Source of the DNA: Candidatus Syntrophopropionicum ammoniitolerans
GTDB taxonomy: Bacteria; Bacillota; Desulfotomaculia; Desulfotomaculales; Pelotomaculaceae
Assembly (NCBI GenBank): GCA_013201395.1
Contig: JABMJD010000001.1
Coordinates: 124,001-188,000 of the forward strand
Reading direction: 5' to 3'
DNA: 64,000 nucleotides
Shown: positions 37,424-44,432 of the stretch, one piece after another
Numbering within the stretch: the first letter of the stretch is position 1
Layout of the letters: each line of letters begins with the position of its first letter
The notes under the pieces: model-generated
What the model was told of the DNA's origin: nothing
What the model saw: only the letters and a program-made list of their open reading frames with translations
Databases searched by the model: none
Program-made: the position numbers and the translations under genes

Positions 37424-39016
37424 TTGACTTTAACAAAAAAAATTACTCCATTTGGGGGGCTCGAGGTACACTGGAGAGTAGCGCAAGCCCTCACCGATAT
37501 GGGCTTTGAGGAGCCCACACCGATTCAACAGCAAACAGTACCGCTACTGCAAAAAGGCAGGGATGTGATTGGACAGGCACAAACGGGAACCGGTAAGACA
37601 GCGGCATTTGGGATTCCCATTATAGAAACAGCCAATACCAGGCATGGTGGCGTGCAGGCCTTAATTGTCACACCTACTAGAGAACTGGCTATCCAGGTGG
37701 CAGAGGAAATCTCCCGGATAGGCAAATATCGCCGGGTGCGAACCATACCGATTTATGGTGGCCAATCAATAGACCGCCAAATAAGAAGGCTGAGACAGGG
37801 TGTGCAGGTCGTAATTGGCACTCCCGGCCGCCTCCTGGATCATTTACGCAGAAAAACACTGTCCTTATCTAATATAAAAACAGTAGTGCTTGATGAAGCA
37901 GATGAAATGCTGGATATGGGGTTTATCGATGATATTGAGGCTATTCTTCAAGCCACACCTGAAAAACGCCAGACCCTACTTTTTTCCGCCACTATGCCGG
38001 CGGAAATAAGGCGTTTAGCTGAGAGATATCTGCACAACCCGGAATTTATCACCGTTAGCAAACAAAGCTTGACCCTACCTCAGATTGAACAGGTATATTA
38101 CGAAACAAGGGAAGCCAACAAAATGGAAAGCCTGTGCCGTGTTCTTGATTCAATGACTGTAACACTGGCCATCATTTTTTGCCGTACAAAGCGTGGTGTA
38201 GACAATCTTGTGGCCGGGCTGCAGGCCAGAGGTTACCCAGCCGCTGCTTTACACGGTGATCTAAGCCAATACCAAAGGGATCGTGTTATGCGCCAATTTC
38301 GTACCGGAAGGATCGACTATCTGGTGGCCACAGATGTGGCAGCGCGTGGGCTGGATATAGACAATGTGTCCCATGTAATTAATTATGATGTTCCCCAGGA
38401 CCCGGAATTTTATGTACACAGGATTGGCCGCACAGGACGGGCAGGGAAAAGTGGTGTTGCTGTTACCCTGGTCACCCCGCGTGACTACAGGCAGTTCAGG
38501 CTTATTGAAGAGCTGACCAAGACACGCATCCGGCGCGAAAGACTACCATCCCAGGCAGACATCAATGAACGTCAGAAGGAGGATATTAAAGAAAGACTCT
38601 TTCTCATGCTGGAGGAAGGCAAATTGGCTTACTATCGCAGCATTGTCGATCTGTTTGCTGACCAATATGACCCCATGGATGTGGCGGCTGCGGCATTAAA
38701 ACTATCCCTTGACCTGGATGAGGGCGGGGACGACCCCTTTGTGGAATCTTTTAGCAATACCGGGGCTCGTCCTGGTATGGCCAGGCTTTTCATGACCATC
38801 GGCAGAAAGGATAATATCAGGGCGGTGGACCTGGTAAAGGCGATAGCACAAAAAGCAGGCATTGCAGAAAACAGCATTGGAAATATAAGTATCTATGAAA
38901 GATTTGCCTTTGTTGAAGTAGCAGAAGAATGGGCTCACCGGGTGCTGAACTGTCTACACCACCAGACAATAAGGGGACAGCGTATAAATGTGGAACCGGC
39001 ACGCAGCAGAAAATAA
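37424..39016 (+). CDS. DEAD-box RNA helicase with DbpA-type RNA-binding C-terminus
   Basis: AQTGTGKTAAFGIP, VLDEADEML, SAT, HRIGRTGRAGK; C-terminal FMTIGRKDNIRAVDLVKAI. Confidence 0.95.
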   Translation: MTLTKKITPFGGLEVHWRVAQALTDMGFEEPTPIQQQTVPLLQKGRDVIGQAQTGTGKTAAFGIPIIETANTRHGGVQALIVTPTRELAIQVAEEISRIGKYRRVRTIPIYGGQSIDRQIRRLRQGVQVVIGTPGRLLDHLRRKTLSLSNIKTVVLDEADEMLDMGFIDDIEAILQATPEKRQTLLFSATMPAEIRRLAERYLHNPEFITVSKQSLTLPQIEQVYYETREANKMESLCRVLDSMTVTLAIIFCRTKRGVDNLVAGLQARGYPAAALHGDLSQYQRDRVMRQFRTGRIDYLVATDVAARGLDIDNVSHVINYDVPQDPEFYVHRIGRTGRAGKSGVAVTLVTPRDYRQFRLIEELTKTRIRRERLPSQADINERQKEDIKERLFLMLEEGKLAYYRSIVDLFADQYDPMDVAAAALKLSLDLDEGGDDPFVESFSNTGARPGMARLFMTIGRKDNIRAVDLVKAIAQKAGIAENSIGNISIYERFAFVEVAEEWAHRVLNCLHHQTIRGQRINVEPARSRK

Positions 39017-39077
39017 ACAGAAATGAGCCGAAGCGGAGTTAAATACCGAACAATATACCTATTTCCTAAAATTAACA

Positions 39078-39107
39078 TTGACGACAACCAGAAATAACCA
39101 CTATAAT
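39078..39107 (+). promoter_or_regulatory. recA sigmaA promoter TTGACG-N18-TATAAT
   Basis: Direct reading. Confidence 0.75.
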
Positions 39108-39118
39108 AAGACCAGTGG

Positions 39119-39132
39119 CGAACTGATGTTCT
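39119..39132 (+). promoter_or_regulatory. LexA/SOS box CGAACTGATGTTCT
   Basis: One mismatch from the Gram-positive palindrome CGAAC-N4-GTTCG, just downstream of the recA -10. Confidence 0.8.
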
Positions 39133-39161
39133 AATAAAGTGGAATTGGGGGGGAGAAGTCA

Positions 39162-40199
39162 TTGTCGGAAAAACAAAAGGCTTTGGATTTAGCTATGACG
39201 CAAATAGAGAGACAATTCGGCAAGGGTTCAATTATGAAGCTAGGGGCGGCAGCGGCAAAAATGAATATTGAGGTTATTCCCAGCGGTGCTCTTTCTTTAG
39301 ATATAGCCCTGGGGGTGGGGGGGGTACCACGTGGGCGAGTGATAGAAATATTCGGCCCCGAATCCTCCGGAAAAACTACGGTGGCCCTACACATAGCAGC
39401 TGAGGCTCAAAAGTTGGGCGGTACAGCGGCGTTTATTGATGCCGAACATGCCCTGGACCCATCCTATGCTAAAAATCTAGGTGTAGATATAGAAAATCTC
39501 CTGGTTTCACAACCTGATACAGGTGAGCAGGCCCTGGAAATTGCCGAGGCACTTGTGCGCAGCGGCGCTGTTGATGTGATTGTTGTGGACAGTGTTGCTG
39601 CACTGGTACCCCGGGCAGAAATAGAGGGGGAAATGGGGGACGCTCATGTTGGTTTACAAGCGCGGCTGATGTCACAGGCTCTGCGCAAGCTTACTGCTGT
39701 TATCGGTAGATCGAGAACAACAGTCATTTTTATCAACCAAATCCGTGAAAAGGTAGGGGTGTTTTATGGTTCCCCGGAAACCACTACCGGTGGCCGGGCA
39801 CTAAAGTTCTACTCTACTATCAGGCTGGACATCCGTAGACAAGAAAATATTAAACAGGGGACAGACATCATCGGCAACCGCACCAAGGCAAAAGTGGTCA
39901 AAAATAAGGTTGCTCCACCGTTTAAGGTAGCAGAGTTTGATATCATGTATGGGACGGGCATATCAAAAGAAGGTAGTATTTTGGATATTGCCGTGGAACA
40001 AGAAATCATCAAAAAAAATGGGGCCTGGTATTCATATGGGGAAGACAGAATTGGCCAGGGTAGGGAAAATGCCAAAGGCTATCTGCGGGAATACCCGGAA
40101 AAAACTAATGAAATTGAACAAAAAATTCGCCGGGCCCTGAACATGACCGATGACAAAGAGAATAAAGGGGTCACCGCACCGGCTAAAGAGAGTAAATAA
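39162..40199 (+). CDS. recA: recombinase RecA
   Basis: [48 protein letters not shown]. Confidence 0.98.
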
Positions 40200-40655
40200 G
40201 TGAAGAGCGAAATGGATCAGGCCAGATTGTACGCCTATAAACTGATGAATTATCGTCCCCGATCCAAATTTGAATTAAGATGGCGCCTGGAAGGCAAAGG
40301 TTACTCTAATGAAGTGGTGGAAAACGTTATTAAAAACCTGGTGCGGCTGGGTTATATTGATGATGAAGGCTTTGCACGATATTGGATTGAGAAAAGAGCG
40401 GGCAAAAGAGGCAGCTATGGACTACGGCAGGAGTTACTGAGCAAGGGTGTCGACAGGGCCATTATCAACAAACATTTGGCGAAATTGTCACCCGAAATAG
40501 AATTGAAAGCCGCCCTGGTTCTGGGGCGGAAAAAGGTAAAGCGTGGCCGGACCTGTCCTGATCATGTTCTGGCCGGTTTTCTACAGCGCAGGGGCTTCTC
40601 TTTTAGTGTGATCAAAAGTGTTGTGCAAACCCTTCTGAGACCCAGTGACGTATGA
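40200..40655 (+). CDS. recX: regulatory protein RecX
   Basis: Immediately follows recA; MNYRPRSKFELRWRLEGKGY, LGYIDDEGFARYWIEKR. Confidence 0.93.
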   Translation: MKSEMDQARLYAYKLMNYRPRSKFELRWRLEGKGYSNEVVENVIKNLVRLGYIDDEGFARYWIEKRAGKRGSYGLRQELLSKGVDRAIINKHLAKLSPEIELKAALVLGRKKVKRGRTCPDHVLAGFLQRRGFSFSVIKSVVQTLLRPSDV

Positions 40656-40666
40656 AACCATCAGCC

Positions 40667-40695
40667 TTGACAGCATTATAAAAACCTTGTAAAAT
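40667..40695 (+). promoter_or_regulatory. sigmaA promoter TTGACA-N17-TAAAAT
   Basis: Near-consensus boxes with optimal spacing, 12 nt after recX. Confidence 0.8.
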
Positions 40696-40700
40696 TAATG

Positions 40701-40905
40701 CTGGGAGAAAATAGAATTGTATACTACTTTGTACGGGTTTTATTATAGATAAAATCCCATATTGCCGGGGGGTAGGGGTTGGGCATTTATTTTTGGCCGA
40801 ACTATTAAGTTGCGCTCATTTAAGCGGGCATTTCTTACCTGTGACTGGACAAGTATATAAGTAGTGACATTGTATTTTCTACCGAGTCTTACTCGGTGTT
40901 TTTTG
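40701..40905 (+). ncRNA. candidate ~200-nt structured RNA (6S-like architecture or rny attenuator leader)
   Basis: Own promoter; ends pair AGAAAATA/TATTTTCT, AAT/ATT, GT/AC, ACTACTT/AAGTAGT, TGTAC/GTATA; internal hairpin GGGTTTTAT..ATAAAA(t)CCC; terminator ACCGAGTcttACTCGGTGTTTTTT. Confidence 0.65.
40881..40905 (+). terminator. intrinsic terminator upstream of rny
   Basis: ACCGAGTcttACTCGGTGTTTTTTG. Confidence 0.85.
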
Positions 40906-40944
40906 TTTTTCAGTTTAATATTTACTAGTAAGGAGGTGAGTTGT

Positions 40945-42483
40945 GTGGATTTAGATACTGTTGTAATTATTATCATAGCCGCTTTGGCCACCTTTGTTTT
41001 GGGGTATTTCCTCAGGAGATATCTGGCGGAAGCAAAGATCATCTCTGCCGAAGCTGAGGCAGAAAAAATAATAGAAGAGGCTGATAAAGGAGCAGAGGCT
41101 AAGAAGAGAGAGGTTCTTCTGGAAGCTAAAGAAGAAGTTTTAAAACTCCGTAATGAGGTAGAAAAGGAGAACAGAGAACGCAGATCAGAACTGCAAAGAC
41201 TTGAGCGTCGTTTGGTGCAAAAAGAGGAAACCCTGGATCGCAAGGTTGACTCTATTGAAAAGAAAGAAGAGAAGCTGAGCAAAAAGGATCTGGAAATTGA
41301 AGCTATCAAGACAAAGCTGGCGGATGTCTATAATCAACAACTGGTGGAATTGGAACGAATATCTGGTTTAACATCTGAGGATGCCAAGCAAATCCTGCTT
41401 GCAGACATTGAAAAAGAGATTCAACATGAAGCAGCCATAATGATCAAGGACACTGAGAATAAAGCCAAGGAAGAGGGAGAAAAACGGGCCCGTAAAATAA
41501 TATCCCTGGCCATTCAAAGATGTGCCGCCGATCACGTGGCTGAGGCCACCGTAGCGGTAATACCGCTACCAAGCGATGAAATGAAAGGCCGTATTATTGG
41601 CCGTGAAGGCAGAAATATTAGGGCTTTTGAGACTCTGACAGGTATAGATTTGATCATTGATGATACACCGGAAGCCGTCATTTTATCCGGCTTTGATCCG
41701 ATTCGCAGGGAAGTAGCCAAAATTGCCCTGGAAAGATTGATAGTTGACGGCAGGATTCACCCGGCTCGTATAGAAGAAATGGTTGAAAAGGCACAAAAGG
41801 ATGTCAATACACAGATCCGTGAGGCTGGCGAACAGGCCACCTTTGAGACCGGTGTACACGGACTCCATAATGAGATCGTTACTCTCCTGGGTCGGCTTAA
41901 GTTTCGTACAAGCTATGGGCAAAATGTTCTGAAACACTCTATTGAGGTAGCACATCTGGCAGGTTTAATGGCTGCTGAATTAGGTGTAGATGTGCAGGTT
42001 GCTAAAAGGGCCGGCCTGCTACATGATCTGGGCAAAGCAGTTGACCATGAAGTAGAAGGTCCTCATGTAGCTATTGGCGTTGATCTGGCCAAAAAATATC
42101 GGGAATCACATGAGGTTATTCATGCTATTGCTGCCCACCATGGTGATGAGGAGCCTAAAACCATTATCGCTGTTCTTGTGCAGGCGGCAGATGCCATATC
42201 TGCAGCCAGGCCCGGGGCACGCAGAGAAACTCTGGAATCATATATTAAACGCTTGACAAAACTTGAGGAAATAGCTAATTCTTTCGAAGGTGTTGAAAAA
42301 TCCTTTGCCATTCAGGCCGGCCGTGAGGTAAGAATCATGGTGAAGCCGGACAAGGTTGATGATTTGACCGCTGTAAGACTGGTACGTGAAGTTGCTAAAA
42401 GAATTGAAAATGAACTGGACTACCCCGGCCAGATAAAAATAGTTATTATCCGGGAAACCAGAGTTGTAGAATATGCCAAATAA
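40945..42483 (+). CDS. rny: ribonuclease Y (GTG 40945 after AGGAGGTGA; track start 40864 would read through the terminator)
   Basis: N-terminal TM, coiled coil, KH ([31 protein letters not shown]), HD domain. Confidence 0.97.
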
Positions 42484-42667
42484 AGTTAACCTTAAACACT
42501 GACTACTACTTTATGAACAGGGGACATACCGGGTGAGGAGGTACGCAGCTTCCTTGCCAGTATGTCTCCTTATTTGTAATTTATGAAGACAGTGCACCTA
42601 ATACTTTTTTATGGGGTAACATCCCAGCAAGCTAAGTTTTAAAAAAGCAGGAATAACGCTTATAAAA

Positions 42668-42701
42668 CCGAATCACTAATTATTCGGCAGGTTTTTTTAA
42701 G
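42668..42701 (+). terminator. terminator-like hairpin in leader of the 42714 ORF
   Basis: CCGAATcactaattATTCGGcaggTTTTTTT. Confidence 0.6.
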
Positions 42702-42713
42702 GAAGGTGTCAGT

Positions 42714-43235
42714 ATGGGATTCAGTTACAAATGCAGCGGGGGAGAACCAACAGATAGTGTCGGCCTATTGATGTCCATATTAGTGTGTTACCCCGAAGTA
42801 TCCACTATCAATTTTTTCCCGGAGAAACAACTATTAAGGTTTACATTTATATATTCCCGGGTATTAGGTGATAATGAGCTTGCCGAATTAAAAAAAAGAC
42901 TGGTGGATAGTATTGAGGCGTACAACCACTTAGAGGGGAAGGAAATTCTTCAACTGGCCATAAATCACAATGTTTGTGATAACCTGACTATGATTGAGGT
43001 GCAGCGGGATGTCCACTCCCTGGTGCAAGAAGAAATAACCTTAATTGTGGAATTATTCCGCCAGTGTCCCCATGCAAATCTTGTTACAGAAGAAAATGAT
43101 CGTCTTATTGAAGAAGATATTATTGTCCAGGAAGAAATGATAGAACATATGTTGCAATGCATGAAAGGAACAACGGAAAAGAAATATCTGTATGCCTTTC
43201 GCGAAGAAGGCAGGGTTTTGGTTTTTAATAAATAA
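42714..43235 (+). CDS. hypothetical protein (possible YtxC-like sporulation protein)
   Basis: ORF with GGAAGG RBS; family not confidently recognised. Confidence 0.7.
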   Translation: MGFSYKCSGGEPTDSVGLLMSILVCYPEVSTINFFPEKQLLRFTFIYSRVLGDNELAELKKRLVDSIEAYNHLEGKEILQLAINHNVCDNLTMIEVQRDVHSLVQEEITLIVELFRQCPHANLVTEENDRLIEEDIIVQEEMIEHMLQCMKGTTEKKYLYAFREEGRVLVFNK

Positions 43236-43251
43236 TTAGGAGGTTTAGTTC

Positions 43252-44031
43252 TTGCGCCTGATGATAATCGGCGATATAGTGGGGCGTCCGGGTCGCCGGG
43301 CGATAAAAGCTAATGTAAACAGTTTAAAAAGGGAATTCAATATAGACTTTGTCATCGCCAATGGCGAAAATGCCGCCGGTGGTAAGGGTATAACCGAGGA
43401 TACTGGCCAGGAATTGTTTATAAATGGCGTGAACGTGCTGACCATGGGTAACCATGTGTGGAATAAAAGGGAAGCATTTGAATATCTAGGCAGGGAAACT
43501 CGCATTGTTAGGCCGGCTAACTATCCGCCCGGCACACCCGGTATGGGCTGGGCTTTCTATGATGTAGCGGGAAATATTAAAATTTGTGTGATTAACCTTA
43601 TGGGCAGGATTTTTCTAGAACCCCTGGACTGTCCTTTTCGTCGGGTTGACGAAATTATAAAAAAAATAAAGGAACAGGCCAGGATTATAATTGTTGACTT
43701 TCATGCTGAGGCTACCTCAGAAAAGGTAGCCATGGGATGGTATCTATCCGGGCGTGTAACCGCAGTGGTCGGTACTCATACCCATGTACAAACAGCGGAC
43801 GAAAAAATTCTTCCCGGGGGAACGGCATATATAACTGATTTGGGTATGACCGGACCCATGGAGTCAGTTATTGGTGTTAAAAAAGATGTTGTGATTGATA
43901 AATTCGTCAATAGGATTCCTCGCTATTTTGAGGTGGCCAAGGGGCCTTATCAATTTAATGCGGCTCTAATAGATGTTGATGAGGAAACAGGTGAGGCTAT
44001 TTCCATCAGGCGTATTCAAAATTATGAGTAA
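43252..44031 (+). CDS. ymdB: TIGR00282-family metallophosphoesterase (YmdB)
   Basis: MIIGDIVGRPGRRAI, NGENAAGGKGIT, TMGNHVWNKRE; follows rny. Confidence 0.95.
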   Translation: MRLMIIGDIVGRPGRRAIKANVNSLKREFNIDFVIANGENAAGGKGITEDTGQELFINGVNVLTMGNHVWNKREAFEYLGRETRIVRPANYPPGTPGMGWAFYDVAGNIKICVINLMGRIFLEPLDCPFRRVDEIIKKIKEQARIIIVDFHAEATSEKVAMGWYLSGRVTAVVGTHTHVQTADEKILPGGTAYITDLGMTGPMESVIGVKKDVVIDKFVNRIPRYFEVAKGPYQFNAALIDVDEETGEAISIRRIQNYE

Positions 44032-44171
44032 GATAATAGTGTGAATATTATGGCTGCAAAAAGTTATTGCGGTAAAATGAAAGGAATTTTTTAGTGGCCA
44101 GCGAAATATACATCATATAGGGTGATCAGGAGTTCAAGTCTATACCAAGTAATGGAGGAGGTTTTCAGCGA

Positions 44172-44432
44172 ATGGATATATTAAAAGTTTCAGCCAAGTC
44201 CAACCCAAATTCTGTTGCCGGCGCCCTAGCTGGTGTTCTTCGTGAGAGGGGTTGCGCTGAAATGCAGGCAATTGGTGCAGGTGCGTTAAACCAAGCAGTA
44301 AAAGCAGTAGCAATAGCCAGGGGTTTTGTGGCGCCAAGCGGGGTTGACCTCATATGTATTCCAGCATTTACCGACATAATTATTGATGGGGAAGAAAGGA
44401 CAGCAATAAAGCTTATTGTTGAACCACGGTAA
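44172..44432 (+). CDS. spoVS: stage V sporulation protein S
   Basis: LKVSAKSNPNSVAGALAGVLRERG...QAVKAVAIARGFVAPSG. Confidence 0.97.
   Translation: MDILKVSAKSNPNSVAGALAGVLRERGCAEMQAIGAGALNQAVKAVAIARGFVAPSGVDLICIPAFTDIIIDGEERTAIKLIVEPR

Follow-up and report, generated by a model that had tools for sequence, protein, structure and literature searches.

RNase Y is a main mRNA-cutting enzyme of Gram-positive bacteria and initiates a large part of mRNA decay in Bacillota. To our knowledge, control of its amount has been described only for Bacillus subtilis, where it is exerted via cleavage of the enzyme's own mRNA. The 5' UTR of E. coli rne (RF00040) is a structured leader of a decay-initiating endonuclease and serves feedback; an intrinsic terminator is not known to be part of the rne mechanism. 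In Gram-positive bacteria, transcription attenuators such as the pyrG and T-box leaders combine a promoter, a folded leader and an intrinsic terminator just before the ORF, and the pyrG antiterminator is formed by the 5' end itself. RNase Y of B. subtilis cleaves its own 164-nt leader and the early coding region, which results in autoregulation, and a contrast between this feedback and that of E. coli rne has been drawn (PMC10303841).

We analyzed a stretch of 64,000 nt from Candidatus Syntrophopropionicum ammoniitolerans (the window; all positions refer to it), in which rny (40945–42483, + strand; Pfam RNase_Y_N 1.6e-67, KH_1, HD) is located downstream of a leader that follows recX. The order on the + strand from 37424 to 44432 is a DEAD-box RNA helicase with a DbpA RNA-binding domain, recA, recX, the leader, rny, an ORF at 42714–43235, ymdB and spoVS; an RNA helicase and RNase Y share one neighborhood. 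For the gap between recX and rny, a first-pass annotation had described a near-consensus promoter, a transcription start at about 40701, extensive pairing of the two RNA ends, a hairpin and a terminator that leaves no space for another promoter before rny. Apart from the exact start, all of these features were recovered at the same positions. The sigmaA-type promoter TTGACA-N17-TAAAAT (40667–40695, + strand) consists of TTGACA at 40667–40672, a 17-nt spacer and TAAAAT at 40690–40695, and with 11/12 matches it scored highest of the promoter matches across the 3.5 kb scanned. Judged from the spacing to the -10 box, the start is predicted at about 40702–40703, thus in the region named before and 1–2 nt further downstream.

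The RNA (+ strand) would begin with an unpaired 5' end (UGGG, 40702–40705), of which U, G and G are nearly invariant in 27 relatives. It continues with the 5' arm of a closing rod P1 (AGAAAATAGAATT..., 40706–40734), the 5' hairpin P2 (GGGTTTTA...TAAAATCCC, 40735–40758), a branched interior (40759–40852) that is variable when leaders are compared across model matches, and the 3' arm of P1 (40853–40880). The minimum-energy fold pairs 40706–40734 with 40853–40880 and contains the P2 hairpin, and the fold of 40701–40904 was more stable than that of shuffled sequences (z = -3.94, none of 200 shuffles as good). The intrinsic terminator (ACCGAGTCTTACTCGGT plus T-run, 40881–40904, + strand) follows directly; its hairpin ACCGAGT-CTT-ACTCGGT (40881–40897) has the stem core CCGAG/CTCGG. 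Terminator and T-run occur a single time in the 2.36-Mb genome, so this is not a terminator that the organism uses commonly. The Shine-Dalgarno sequence of rny (AAGGAGGTGA, 40930–40939, + strand) can be read directly, and the GTG at 40945 starts 40 nt past the end of the T-run at 40904. Since this gap is too short for a further promoter, transcription of rny from the upstream promoter must read through the terminator. The locus thus has the layout of an attenuator: promoter, leader and intrinsic terminator right before the ORF, with no promoter in between.

The rny frame is also open further upstream, across the terminator, to a GTG at 40864 (40864–40944, + strand). Neither a Shine-Dalgarno sequence nor a conserved start was seen at this GTG, and the extension is therefore probably due to chance. 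A coding function of the leader was set aside, because the differences in leader length are not multiples of three.

Homologues of the leader were found by DNA search in 46 of 60 relatives. A TTGAC/TAnnnT promoter was present in all of the first 30 relatives, 33–41 nt (nearly always 34 nt) ahead of the motif CTGGGAGAAAATAGAATT and with rny following. A covariance model built from 27 of the 30 relatives' loci that were read matched 71 of the 85 genomes of the order, with one copy each, and all 71 matches were located directly upstream of rny on the same strand. The class-level search covered the same 85 genomes and adds nothing beyond the order; at the level of the phylum, 24 of 399 genomes were matched. 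Together with the covariation presented below, the 71/71 association identifies a conserved structured leader tied to one gene, as is the case for attenuators. Leader L079, which has no rny, was discarded as a chance match of the model, and the 79 pattern matches in named genomes also include many chance ones without rny.

In three of the 14 order genomes without a model match, the assembly lacks rny. The remaining 11 have rny, and all of them keep a terminator or a terminator-like remnant at this place. Eight of these 11 show a CCGAG/CCGGG...CTCGG terminator together with a different, often longer leader interior, and one (G037) has the remnant ACCG...CGGT ahead of a T-run. In two genomes of one genus (G050 and G040, leaders L264 and L265), the rny promoter is kept, and the terminator in the same place has a GC-rich stem of unrelated sequence, GGCCCAACCT...AGGTTGGGCC, which looks like an exchange of the terminator without a change in its position.

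The genes upstream of the leader are less constant. The leader stays with rny in several genomes where recX is missing, and it still precedes rny where recA is replaced upstream by metF (MTHFR) in one family or by a NifU-like gene in another. Because the upstream neighbors change while rny stays, these data speak for an RNA that is part of rny rather than of the recA-recX operon.

The drawn structure was supported by the comparison of 84 aligned sequences. Standard pairs made up 88.5% of the positions paired, compared to 36–49% when the partners were slid. Compensatory changes among relatives, on which the first-pass annotation had made its reading depend, were present: changes on both sides occurred in 28 of 39 pairs, and the number of cells with such changes was 232, compared to 65 in shuffles and a maximum of 76 in the slid versions. 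As this alignment was fitted to the structure, we also applied a test of arm pairing that is independent of any alignment. The 5' arm paired with its own 3' arm with a mean of -20.3 kcal/mol, compared to -13.2 kcal/mol with the arms of other families. In helix 5, which is the P2 hairpin, changes on both sides were seen in seven of eight pairs; the hairpin is present in most families, not in all. The core pairs C-G, G-C and G-C of the terminator were invariant in the 84 sequences. Simple folding of an alignment had recovered only the 5' hairpin and the terminator, since most of its sequences were from close relatives; more diverse sequences resolved the structure.

Among the model matches the leader length ranges from 92 to 244 nt, and the interior varies in length and form and is nearly absent in the shortest leader (L070). 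Promoter, 5' end, rod and terminator are therefore the conserved core. Within the order, the 5' arm is nearly invariant, more so than its 3' partner arm, and the need for pairing alone would not explain this degree of conservation.

We also searched 60 rny loci of the phylum for the terminator, in the 500 nt that precede RNase Y residue 29. A CCGAG/CCGGG/TCGAG...CTCGG/CTCGA hairpin preceded rny in 36 of the 60 loci (31 of 51 families), while the controls gave 4/60 for reversed sequence and 6/210 for other 500-nt windows of the same loci. In many of the loci with the hairpin, a consensus promoter is present and the leader is rod-like, with a 5' end resembling GGGAGAAACU. In the Bacilli that were read (Bacillus, Heyndrickxia and Paenibacillus or Paenibacillaceae-like), rny is preceded by a promoter and by a leader of about 150 nt that lacks a CCGAG terminator and a matching rod. 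The B. subtilis system thus resembles the locus of the window in that the leader of the same gene is involved and a sigmaA-type promoter is found some 150 nt before rny, but control in B. subtilis acts by cleavage and decay, with no terminator mentioned (PMC10303841), and the CCGAG...CTCGG terminator and the matching rod were not seen in the leaders of the Bacilli that were read.

Could the 5' end of the leader act as an antiterminator? A duplex test showed no sign of this in the order of the window: complementarity between 5' end and terminator did not exceed that of shuffles (mean z 0.02, 31 leaders), and an antiterminator thus gains no support in this order. For other classes, the mean z was -1.0 (31 leaders), with 13 of the 31 below -1, so that real complementarity was restricted to leaders outside the order. 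When formation of the terminator is disallowed, the predicted folds of all leaders pair the 5' end with the terminator segment. In the leader of the window, the terminator form is favored by 3.6 kcal/mol and has a predicted probability of 1.00, so by the folding model this terminator could simply be constitutive. In seven leaders from other classes, including L222 and L219, folding predicts the antiterminated form as the minimum. Leaders from these classes (for example L222, L219 and L200) have a 5' end ...GAGAAACU that is complementary to the terminator segment AGUUUCU, and in some also to the 3' arm of the rod; in such leaders this complementarity makes the antiterminated form the predicted minimum fold. 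These sequence features weakly support a 5'-end antiterminator in other classes. It is also possible that the rod is extended by pairing of the UGG with the CCG of the terminator; both are invariant, and covariation is therefore uninformative on this point.

Besides an attenuator leader of RNase Y, the first-pass annotation had offered a 6S-like RNA, which would bind RNA polymerase. An end-to-end rod of about 200 nt with two paired ends does resemble 6S RNA, and in B. subtilis the rny mRNA was enriched about 64-fold with RNA polymerase, which was called species-specific in that study (PMC11077062). Nevertheless, the 6S model (RF00013) had no match in the window at the gathering score, and none at E ≤ 5 in 40600–40990. 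A canonical 6S gene is present at another locus in all 41 genomes searched, the source genome included (G000:C76:7857–8037, 91.7 bits). The open interior on which the resemblance had partly been based turned out to be branched, varies among families in length and form and has no conserved central bubble, and the RNA is always linked to rny. We regard a 6S-like RNA as the least probable of all explanations considered. Several members of the order (G035, G042 and others) have two or three canonical 6S genes. At the leader, no Rfam 15 family reached the gathering threshold, either in the window or in a set of 12 diverse relatives. Below the threshold, the best hit was anti-hemB (24 bits at a threshold of 49.5 bits, E 0.0013); it mainly lay around the terminator and was treated as chance. 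Elsewhere in the window, a TPP riboswitch (RF00059, 19552–19660, + strand, 76.3 bits) and a cobalamin riboswitch (RF00174, 47207–47352, + strand, 68.4 bits) were identified.

The promoter of its own, the strong terminator, the stable rod-like fold and the single copy per genome would also suit a separate and abundant small RNA with a function in trans, for example through binding of a protein or of other RNAs, with rny gaining only from leakage of the terminator, and such a role could account for a 5' arm that is conserved beyond the demands of pairing. Against this stands that the RNA was never found apart from rny in the 71 order genomes, though the upstream neighbors change, and that the interior, where a seed site would be expected, is not constant in length or sequence from family to family and is almost absent from L070. 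We consider a trans-acting function unlikely. The nearly uninterrupted helix of about 25 base pairs at the 5' end, seen in all families, raises the question of whether the rod is chiefly a double-strand cleavage site for RNase III, which would set the decay of the rny mRNA as in the leaders of other RNase genes, with the terminator being secondary. RNase III of B. subtilis cuts at pairs of sites within long-range intramolecular duplexes (PMC11780869). This would leave the invariant terminator stem and the sequence of the 5' arm unexplained, and we judge it to be very unlikely. An ordinary arrangement, in which the terminator closes the recA-recX operon and rny has a plain promoter and a structured leader without regulation, gains from the fact that intrinsic terminators after operons are common. 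It is at odds with a promoter that lies upstream of the terminator, at near-constant distance to the RNA in all relatives, with none that fits between terminator and rny, with a terminator that persists without recA and recX upstream, and with a stem sequence that is conserved phylum-wide, which an operon terminator does not need. Such an arrangement seems highly improbable to us.

We conclude that the element is probably a cis-acting 5' leader of the rny mRNA that functions as a transcription attenuator. This agrees with the second proposal of the first-pass annotation and is supported by the anatomy and the conservation, as promoter, rod and terminator track rny whatever gene is located upstream. 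Transcription would begin at about 40703, and the leader would fold into a long rod abutting the terminator. Much of the transcription would stop at about 40904, yielding an RNA of about 200 nt as a by-product, and rny would be made by those polymerases that read through; the structured 5' end may set the stability of the read-through mRNA. We infer partial and regulated termination, with the activity of RNase Y or another RNA-turnover signal as the input. RNase Y itself would be the natural candidate, and the purpose would most likely be to keep the amount of RNase Y at a fixed level, as happens in B. subtilis (PMC10303841).

Compared to the known systems, the rny leader differs from the rne 5' UTR by the enzyme family and by the lack of a match to RF00040 or another Rfam family. 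It differs from the pyrG and T-box leaders in that no tRNA- or metabolite-binding element was recognized (no Rfam hit), that the regulated gene encodes an RNase, and that an antiterminator signal was not seen in the order of the window; the 5'-end complementarity in rny leaders of other classes parallels pyrG. A search of Rfam 15 and of the literature, the latter with most subscription journals outside its reach, for attenuators, riboswitches or leaders of rny gave no report of this leader; apart from the B. subtilis work, the papers found were unrelated. The leader is thus apparently an undescribed switch on the RNase Y gene. In a wider version, which we view as rather speculative, the attenuator would operate phylum-wide: the 5' end would pair with the rod or with the terminator of fixed sequence, and events at the 5' end (cleavage or binding by RNase Y, 5'-end processing or the choice of the start nucleotide) would decide on the transcription of rny. 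If this is true, an enzyme of mRNA decay would sense its own activity via transcription termination.

The conservation of the leader across the entire order and of the terminator in more than half of the sampled genomes of the phylum points to an older and more general control of RNase Y by transcription termination. The leader would represent a new RNA family whose target gene is clear, and its function could be tested in culturable Desulforamulus, Desulfofundulus and Sporotomaculum.
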